DNA of 64,000 nucleotides from Oceanococcus sp. HetDA_MAG_MS8 (GTDB lineage Bacteria; Pseudomonadota; Gammaproteobacteria; Nevskiales; Oceanococcaceae), in NCBI GenBank assembly GCA_019192445.1, contig JAHCMK010000005.1, forward strand, positions 248,001-312,000, written 5' to 3'. The notes under the pieces were generated by a model, which ran no database searches, was not told the DNA's origin, and saw only the letters and a program-made list of their open reading frames with translations. The translations under genes and the position numbers were made by a program. This document shows, in pieces, positions 14,587 through 50,721 of the stretch (the stretch's first letter is position 1; every line of letters starts with the position of its first letter).

Positions 14587-14623
14587 AAAGCTCGCGGCCG
14601 GTAGACGGTCGCGAGCTTTTTTT
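14587..14623 (+). terminator. Rho-independent terminator of mdh
   Basis: AAAGCTCGCG (14587-14596) pairs with CGCGAGCTTT (14610-14619), with further CCG/CGG pairing inside. A run of seven T follows the GC-rich stem. Position 40 bases after the mdh stop fits. Confidence 0.88.
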
Positions 14624-15190
14624 GGTTCATCGCACTTTGGCGGGACATGAGTTTAGGTCTGCCGAACTTGATGGCTTGAGTATCTGTCCTCGTCGTAGGT
14701 CATCAGATGGGCACTAGCCAGTTCTGCAGATAAAAGACAGAACGTCGTTGCTGCGCTCGCAGGCGTGGGGCGTATTGGTCACTTAGCGCCGTTCGTTCCT
14801 CGCGCCGCTGCGCGGTGCCCTCCGGCGTCTTGCGCTTTGTGTGGCCGGCTTGACGCGACGTCGTGTCGCGGCAAGCCTCAATCGGCCGTCCATGGCCGAT
14901 TGACCACAGCCGCTGCAAGACGCCTACGGCGCTCCGAAATACGGCCCTAAGGGACCAACACACCCCACCTGCCACCACCGGCTCTTCGAAGAGCCTCATC
15001 CTCAGATGCTTGATGTCGGGCAAGATCGAGCCTAGTGAGGCCAGACGGAGCTGCCGAACAAAGATCATCGGATCAATCCACACTGTTCCGCGAAGAACGT
15101 TTTTTTTGCTTGGCCAAGAGTGTGAAGTTCTGCCAGCCCCACAGTGCGGGGGCGAGTCAGAACTTGGCTGGGGTCAGGCCGAGCTATGTG
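14624..15190. other. Long non-coding interval with palindromes between mdh and ptsI
   Basis: About 570 bases without a supportable gene; the short open frames here lack ribosome sites and domain resemblance. It contains the branched palindrome at 14782-14951, a perfect 16-base palindrome GGCTCTTCGAAGAGCC (14980-14995), and an inverted repeat AAGTTCTG (15125-15132) / CAGAACTT (15158-15165) just past the ptsI stop, which could close the minus-strand PTS transcript although no U tract follows it. Confidence 0.6.
14782..14951. repeat. 170-bp branched palindrome
   Basis: Outer imperfect arms begin CTTAG(C)GCCG on the left (from 14782) and end with the complementary CGGCCCTAAG on the right. A perfect 10-base stem GGCGTCTTGC (14824-14833) / GCAAGACGCC (14915-14924) comes next, then TGTGG (14840-14844) / CCACA (14904-14908). 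Inside are two side-by-side hairpins: 14847-14859 with 14865-14877 (12 of 13 paired) and CAATCGGCC (14879-14887) with GGCCGATTG (14894-14902). The same fold is possible in RNA from either strand or as a DNA cruciform. Confidence 0.75.
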
Positions 15191-48882: not shown

Positions 48883-48967
48883 GGAGGGATGCCCGAGCGG
48901 TCAAAGGGAGCAGACTGTAAATCTGCCGGCTATGCCTTCGAAGGTTCGAATCCTTCTCCCTCCACCA
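48883..48967 (+). tRNA. tRNA-Tyr (anticodon GTA)
   Basis: 85 bases with encoded CCA. Acceptor stem GGAGGGA/TCCCTCC, D-loop with GAGCGGTCAAAGGGAGC, anticodon loop CTGTAAA (GTA), a long variable arm as expected for class II tRNA-Tyr, and GGTTCGAATCC in the T arm. Confidence 0.97.
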
Positions 48968-48980
48968 AATAATGCCTTTC

Positions 48981-49054
<74 letters not shown>

Positions 49055-49098
49055 ATTGAACGCGAACGCTTAAAGCACGCAGGTAGTTTCGACAACGT

Positions 49099-49174
49099 GC
49101 CCAAATAGCTCAGTCGGTAGAGCACTTTCTTGGTAAGGAAGAGGTCGCCGGTTCGATTCCGGCTTTGGGCACCA
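49099..49174 (+). tRNA. tRNA-Thr (anticodon GGT)
   Basis: 76 bases with encoded CCA. Acceptor stem GCCCAAA/TTTGGGC, anticodon loop TTGGTAA (GGT), T arm CGGTTCGATTCCG. The Tyr-Gly-Thr-tuf order equals the classical tufB operon. No terminator separates it from tuf. Confidence 0.97.
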
Positions 49175-49344
49175 CGGATCAAAAGGCCGTCGCCCCTTCC
49201 GGGCTACGGTCGTTTGTGTTGGAAGCAGCGAGCGATGGAGGGCGGGCCTCAGGTCTGTCAGCCGCAGCGTTTGGCGGGGTGAGCTGGATACAGCAATCCC
49301 CGATGTTTTTCACAATTTGTAGTCTTGATAGAGGACCATGAAGC

Positions 49345-50535
49345 ATGGCCAAGGAAAAGTTTGAACGCACCAAGCCGCACGTTAACGTGGGGACGATTGG
49401 TCACGTGGACCATGGAAAGACGACGCTGACGGCGGCGCTGACGGTGGTGCAGGGTAAGAAGTTTGGTGGTGAGCTGCGTGCTTATGACCAGATTGACAAT
49501 GCTCCTGAAGAGAAAGCGCGTGGTATCACCATTGCGACGGCGCACGTGGAGTACGAATCGGAAGGTCGTCACTACGCGCACGTGGATTGCCCCGGACACG
49601 CTGACTATGTGAAGAACATGATCACCGGTGCGGCGCAGATGGACGGCGCGATTTTGGTGTGCTCTGCAGCCGATGGCCCCATGCCCCAAACCCGCGAGCA
49701 CATTTTGCTGGCGCGTCAGGTGGGTGTGCCCTACATCGTGGTGTTCCTGAACAAGGCCGACATGGTCGATGACGAGGAGCTGCTGGAGCTGGTGGAGATG
49801 GAAGTGCGCGATCTTCTGTCCACCTACGACTTCCCCGGCGACGACACGCCGATCATCACCGGTTCTGCGCTGAAAGCGCTGGAAGGTGACGAGTCCGAAA
49901 TTGGCTCCCAAGCCATCGAGAAGCTGATCGAAGCCCTGGACACCTACATTCCTGAGCCTGAGCGCGCCATCGACGGCGACTTCATCATGCCTGTGGAAGA
50001 CGTGTTCTCGATTTCTGGTCGCGGTACCGTGGCCACGGGTCGTGTTGAGCGCGGCATTGTGAAGGTGGGTGAAGAAGTCGAAATTATCGGCATCAAAGAC
50101 ACCGCCAAGACCACCGTGACCGGTGTGGAAATGTTCCGCAAGCTGCTGGACGAAGGCCGCGCTGGTGACAACGTCGGTATTCTGCTGCGTGGCACCAAGC
50201 GTGAAGATATTGAGCGTGGTCAGGTTCTGGCCAAGCCCGGTAGCATCAATCCGCACACCAAGTTTGAAGCTGAGGTGTACGTGCTGAAGAAGGAAGAGGG
50301 TGGTCGTCACACGCCATTCTTCAATGGCTACCGTCCGCAGTTCTACTTCCGCACCACCGACGTGACCGGTGCTGTGGAATTGCCAGAAGGCACCGAGATG
50401 GTGATGCCTGGTGACAACGTGAACGTGAAGATCGAGCTGATTGCTCCGATCGCCATGGATGACGGCCTGCGTTTCGCGATTCGCGAAGGCGGTCGTACTG
50501 TTGGCGCCGGCGTCGTCGCCAAGATCATCGAGTAA
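49345..50535 (+). CDS. tuf: Elongation factor Tu
   Basis: 396 residues, standard length. The GTPase motifs [16 protein letters not shown] and NKADM are present, followed by the two beta-barrel domains. It delivers aminoacyl-tRNA to the ribosome. The spacer after tRNA-Thr is 170 bases and GAGGA precedes the start. It is the only tuf in the window; the right edge cuts off before a second copy beyond fusA could be seen. Confidence 0.98.
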
Positions 50536-50576
50536 TCGAGATCGGGTCACGCCGTCAGCCGCAGGGCTGGCGGCGC

Positions 50577-50606
50577 TTGATCAACGGCCGCGAACTTTGC
50601 TAACAT
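50577..50606 (+). promoter_or_regulatory. Candidate promoter for tRNA-Trp-secE-nusG, overlapping the tuf terminator
   Basis: TTGATC (50577-50582), 18-base spacer, TAACAT (50601-50606) with a TG dinucleotide one base upstream (extended -10). It lies in the stem-loop that ends tuf, giving a start about 35 bases before tRNA-Trp. A promoter is needed here because a terminator precedes the tRNA. Confidence 0.45.
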
Positions 50607-50620
50607 TCGCGGCCTTTTTG
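50586..50620 (+). terminator. Rho-independent terminator of tuf
   Basis: GGCCGCGAA (50586-50594) pairs perfectly with TTCGCGGCC (50606-50614), then five T. It lies 50 bases past the tuf stop. Confidence 0.9.
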
Positions 50621-50645
50621 TTTGCTGCGTAAATCGCAGACGTGT

Positions 50646-50721
50646 AGGGCAGTAGCTCAATTGGTAGAGCGGCGGTCTCCAAAACCGCAGGTTGGGGGTT
50701 CGAGACCCTCCTGCCCTGCCA
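50646..50721 (+). tRNA. tRNA-Trp (anticodon CCA)
   Basis: 76 bases with encoded CCA. Acceptor stem AGGGCAG/CTGCCCT, anticodon loop CTCCAAA (CCA), T arm GGGGTTCGAGACCCTC. It directly precedes secE, an arrangement common in gammaproteobacteria. Confidence 0.97.

Follow-up and report, generated by a model that had tools for sequence, protein, structure and literature searches.

The gap between mdh and ptsI in the 64,000-nucleotide stretch of DNA analysed here (the window) contains a large nested palindrome at 14782-14951, which raises the question of whether it is a dispersed repeat, a structured RNA or a protein-binding nucleoid DNA site, the three readings offered by the first-pass annotation. 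The palindrome proved to be real and far beyond chance, and the outer arms, stems and inner hairpins described for it were all found. The perfect 10-bp stem was recovered as annotated, with 14824-14833 (GGCGTCTTGC) pairing with 14915-14924 (GCAAGACGCC), and the two inner hairpins were present at 14847-14877 and 14878-14903. The outer imperfect arms also exist, although their real reach of about 14769-14964 goes beyond the span of 14782-14951 assigned to them. A further 16-bp palindrome reported at 14980-14995 (GGCTCTTCGAAGAGCC) was perfect in the window but imperfect in two sister copies, and was therefore given no weight. The terminator placed after mdh was borne out by a stem at 14590-14596/14610-14616 followed by a T-run at 14617-14623. 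Folding of the RNA of both strands produced a nested and ordered structure on plus and minus, with minimum free energies of -94.3 (plus) and -99.3 (minus) kcal/mol for the palindrome and z-scores of -7.3 (plus) and -7.8 (minus) against dinucleotide shuffles, none of the 200 shuffles being as good. The features of the locus are as follows.

14590..14623, plus strand: intrinsic terminator of mdh, seen in the sequence; the 476-bp repeated unit begins directly 3' of it
14624..15099, no strand assigned: repeated unit of ~476 bp, with homologues at two further genome sites (82.7-85.0% identity)
14769..14964, minus strand (RNA sense): branched palindromic element with arms at 14769-14793 and 14940-14964, delimited by alignment of copies
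14798..14933, minus strand: core of the element, matched by covariance model R1 at 141.6 bits
14805..14815, minus strand: CCGCGCAGCGG, a side hairpin close to the RNA 3' end that comparison of copies shows to be conserved
14812-14939, minus strand: match to Rfam RF01731 (TwoAYGGAY), 55.6 bits, gathering threshold 43
14824..14833, minus strand: perfect 10-bp stem, 3' arm, pairing with 14915-14924
14847..14877, minus strand: hairpin 1, the 3' hairpin of the RNA, with loop ACACGACGU, in which CGA replaces the GGA of most relatives
14878..14903, minus strand: hairpin 2, the 5' hairpin of the RNA, with loop AUGGAC, canonical GGA retained
14915..14924, minus strand: perfect 10-bp stem, 5' arm, pairing with 14824-14833

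A search of the own and related genomes with the palindrome revealed multi-copy dispersal. About 18 related places, including the window palindrome itself, were found in the own genome, most of them at 80-94% identity, and diverged copies occurred in all four family genomes examined, which rules out a single-copy or locus-specific palindrome. The longer unit of ~476 bp (14624-15099) was common to three genome places including the window, and the homology of the other own-genome copies was limited to the branched element of ~196 bp. Within the order, covariance model R1 detected the element in 26 of 85 genomes, belonging to 10 of 21 genera; broader sampling gave 16 of 369 genomes for the class and 19 of 398 for the phylum, every match lying inside the same class. 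Most element-bearing genomes carried several copies apiece, and the hosts came from many families of gammaproteobacteria, with Pseudomonas, Enterobacteriaceae-like genomes and Guyparkeria among them. Guyparkeria sp. SCN-R1 (G241) carries the element, Guyparkeria alone being confirmed among the 80 loci examined in a loose pattern search of contigs. One genome group matched a plasmid-borne repeat of Pseudomonas antarctica, and another host group was regarded as Enterobacteriaceae-like because its relA is ~80% identical to that of E. coli. The window sequence gave no match when searched among plasmids and phages, and a hairpin-pattern search of viral contigs was likewise negative. Two copies (L065/L069 and L067/L070) occupy orthologous places in two neighbouring-genus species (G002 and G003), one of them rearranged in G002; copies can thus persist across speciation.

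The first-pass annotation had recognised no known family, which was mistaken, as the minus strand exceeds the gathering threshold of RF01731. The same model exceeded its gathering score at 14 own-genome places and also in other genera, and did so in none of 14 control genomes. The window copy displays the TwoAYGGAY trait of neighbouring paired hairpins that share a stem, and its apical loops read AUGGAC in hairpin 2 and ACGAC in hairpin 1. Apart from TwoAYGGAY and tRNA, the Rfam scan of the window returned no family above threshold; a cluster of four tRNA genes lies at 48883-50718. The RNA fold is already known to Rfam. In the open-licence literature we found no account in which the TwoAYGGAY fold appears as a repeat that is dispersed, paired and insertion-like and lies at the 3' ends of genes.

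Covariation was assessed over 31 aligned element cores from the family of the window genome. It was strong: double compensatory changes with pairing kept were found at 33 of 44 base pairs, and the covariation score was 0.430, compared with 0.137 for shuffled alignments and at most 0.095 with slid partners, none of 500 shuffles being as good. The branched element is under selection for a fold. The non-Watson-Crick pairs further indicated a strand, with 206 G.U against 57 A.C among the aligned pairs in the minus-strand sense. When one arm was compared with the reverse complement of the other, an alignment-neutral test that treats both strands alike, the GU:AC ratio was 284:147 and the loci divided 71:25 (p=3e-6). 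Since copies within one genome are related, the count per genome is the fairest figure, and it stood at 28:2 in favour of the minus strand (30 genomes), the alignment used having been fitted to a model that gives G.U a mild scoring advantage. This bias points to either a minus-strand RNA or a single-strand DNA substrate and fits both alike. Two of the three initial readings were supported: the palindrome is a dispersed repeat with non-autonomous behaviour, and covariation and wobble bias mark it as belonging to a structured-RNA family. No evidence came to light for the third, a protein-binding nucleoid DNA site. We prefer, with moderate confidence, to explain the window palindrome as one copy of a MITE/REPIN-like intergenic repeat that is dispersed and non-autonomous, and whose transcript from the minus strand would fold as a TwoAYGGAY-type RNA.

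The history of the locus was traced in the sister species G001, where mdh and ptsI are convergent and separated by 229 bp without the element, as against 645 bp in the window genome. The absence at this orthologous site makes insertion of the ~476-bp unit (14624-15099) at the mdh T-run probable; with one sister genome compared, insertion in the window lineage appears likelier than loss in G001. The unit begins immediately 3' of the T-run of the mdh terminator, and the sister copy L025 likewise follows a terminator T-run. Its ends form an imperfect terminal inverted repeat (GGTTCATCGC / CGTTCTTCGC, 8 of 10 bases) and are imperfect in the sister copies, and it is flanked by T-runs (T7 at 14617-14623 and T8 at 15100-15107) that are of low complexity and merely compatible with target duplication. 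Insertion of the repeat appears to take place immediately past the ends of genes. RAYT/REP mobilisation was considered and rejected, because a Y1_Tnp match was missing from 16 of the 26 element-bearing genomes of the order, with a negative association, so that this transposase is dispensable. No mobilising gene other than the Y1 transposase and no parent transposon was found.

These observations bear on the main rival to the RNA/CsrA reading, a single-strand DNA substrate. The repeat would then be purely selfish DNA: a single-strand-specific transposase would act on its branched hairpins and recognise the loop GGA, which would not be a CsrA site. Dispersal, REPIN-like pairing and the lack of an element at the orthologous site of the sister species agree with such an origin, and G.T wobble on one DNA strand would mimic the G.U bias. 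It is nevertheless rather unlikely, given that the usual candidate, a Y1 (HUH, RAYT-type) transposase, is absent from those 16 of 26 genomes and negatively associated, that no other mobilising gene came to light, and that the loop sequence is a close match to the CsrA consensus.

Copies were frequently arranged in head-to-head pairs: in the RNA sense, the two-copy loci comprised 53 head-to-head, 2 tail-to-tail and 1 tandem arrangement. Beside the window copy, a search with filters off detected no decayed second copy. Inspection of the spacers of paired copies disclosed no shared promoter, an AT-rich centre in G169 and no common box. The pairs had several further peculiarities. A pair in G169 lies inside a giant inverted repeat of ~700 bp with long terminal arms, and the ends of the giant repeats (G169 L238, L252, L275-L281) carry a AAAGAAAGTAACCAAAGAAAG-like sequence, one frame of which reads KESNQRK. 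Motifs of this type may underlie spurious hypothetical proteins, and no paper containing the KESNQRK string was found in the open-licence literature. At Guyparkeria-like loci (L237 1261-1500, L240 1636-1879 and L253 1636-1867), the head-to-head spacer carries an inverted pair, GTGGGAGCG...CGCTCCCAC, which resembles Pseudomonas REP elements and was apparently inserted within the head-to-head pair. Pairs in the own genome (L079, L080, L082) and in G001 (L058, L062), the two species of the genus, combine two distinct subtypes, A and B, facing opposite ways, as if these travel together.

Gene context was taken from a simple ORF caller with element-overlapping ORFs excluded, the calls being approximate and a source of error, and among 119 loci it was convergent at 50, codirectional at 66 and divergent at 3, a near-absence from divergent gaps. 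Within ~330 bp, terminators pointed toward the element at 30 of 127 loci and away from it at 12 of 127. Single copies in codirectional contexts were antisense to their neighbours in 25 cases versus 12, a tendency that lends no support to readthrough as a source of GGA-strand expression. Siting at 3' ends, the rarity of divergent gaps and the excess of inward-pointing terminators would also suit a (bi)directional transcription-ending or mRNA-stabilising structure downstream of genes, with the GGA loops incidental. However, a tail-to-tail bias is expected of any harm-avoiding repeat, and that of other Pseudomonas repeats, those of P. fluorescens, has been explained as the least harmful location (PMC2718517). 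At the window, moreover, the mdh terminator precedes the element, which itself is without a terminator tract, and the loop GGA, needless for termination, is the best conserved part; a role at 3' ends is therefore improbable as the explanation. A functionless chance or mutational palindrome, its arms kept complementary by template-switch repair, is scarcely credible, for although template switching can produce paired changes in palindromes, the fold is kept across numerous families of gammaproteobacteria in which the stems are entirely replaced and the loops stay the same, strand-neutral repair predicts no wobble bias, and the covariation was unequalled in 500 shuffles and far lower in the slid controls.

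The conserved loops suggest a partner for the predicted RNA. GGA was present in the hairpin 2 loop of 139 of 150 copies and in the hairpin 1 loop of 123, and the hairpin 1 loop has CGA in 26 of the 150, as in the window copy. The loop GGA or GA columns carry 1.9-2.0 bits while the stems are replaced wholesale, and in the most distant genera all 25 copies have GGA in both loops. CGA is the only common variant of the hairpin 1 loop, and no copy among the 150 lacks GGA in both loops (~2 expected by chance, not significant). Among the loop sequences, CAGGACG and CAGGAUG occur most often; both match the CsrB repeat, CAGGA(U/A/C)G, and also the core of the SELEX consensus for CsrA, RUACARGGAUGU, in which GGA lies in hairpin loops (PMC7652899). 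The own genome has one csrA, the gene for this global regulator. Judged from these motifs, CsrA/RsmA is a likely partner of the predicted element RNA. The CsrA SELEX hairpins mostly have at most 4 contiguous pairs (PMC7652899), whereas the stems of the element are long, which counts against this partner. Having kept GGA in just one loop of the two, the window copy is probably a weakened one. No paper linking such repeats to CsrA was found in the open-licence literature.

Under the preferred explanation of a dispersed repeat with a TwoAYGGAY-type transcript, a transposase acting in trans would have made the insertion at the mdh terminator T-run. The GGA strand would be transcribed, at the window copy via readthrough from ptsI, a route proposed because no promoter was found, the search near this copy having been for sigma-70-like sequences. 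That negative promoter result counts against GGA-strand transcription at this copy. A CsrA/RsmA dimer could bridge the two adjacent GGA-loop hairpins, and with binding across both the transcripts may serve as 3'-UTR binding sites or decoys. More tentatively, the repeat could be a widespread gammaproteobacterial mobile-like element that spreads CsrA/RsmA sites, its copies jointly buffering CsrA or wiring genes into the Csr network. TwoAYGGAY has so far been an orphan motif with a suggested CsrA link, and dispersed, insertion-like, often head-to-head members with RNA-strand selection give it a natural history, and culturable hosts (Pseudomonas, Guyparkeria and Enterobacteriaceae) offer many copies for tests. 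If CsrA binding is true, this would be a mobile-like element distributing the sites of a post-transcriptional regulator.

The element shares features with several known systems. Like MITEs, it is short, non-coding and multi-copy, with a ~476-bp unit bearing short, imperfect terminal inverted repeats and T-runs at both ends; in contrast to MITEs, it contains a conserved RNA-like structure, and no parent transposon was found for it. With REPIN/BIME and the Pseudomonas repeats R0, R2, R178 and R200 it has in common a non-autonomous, intergenic nature, inverted pairs and a tail-to-tail bias (PMC2718517), and the family may overlap the P. fluorescens repeats R178 and R200; it differs from REPIN/BIME in its branched fold of ~200 bp in place of a short hairpin and, in the order examined, in its independence of the Y1 transposase. 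The sponge RNAs CsrB/CsrC and RsmX/Y/Z resemble it in their CAGGAYG-type GGA loop motifs and occurrence in gammaproteobacteria, whereas the element has two GGA hairpins, long stems, many dispersed copies and no recognised promoter or terminator of its own. TwoAYGGAY (Weinberg et al. 2010) was proposed as CsrA-binding on motif grounds (PMC4333381); the accessible part of its published record reports it from gammaproteobacteria, Clostridiales and the human gut, and that part does not describe dispersed multi-copy, head-to-head, gene-3'-end or sister-species presence/absence traits. The window copy departs from RF01731 in having GGA in one loop only and in lower stems that fit the Rfam model poorly, and the repeat as a whole agrees with this family in a minus-strand score over threshold and in paired adjacent hairpins with GGA loops on one stem.
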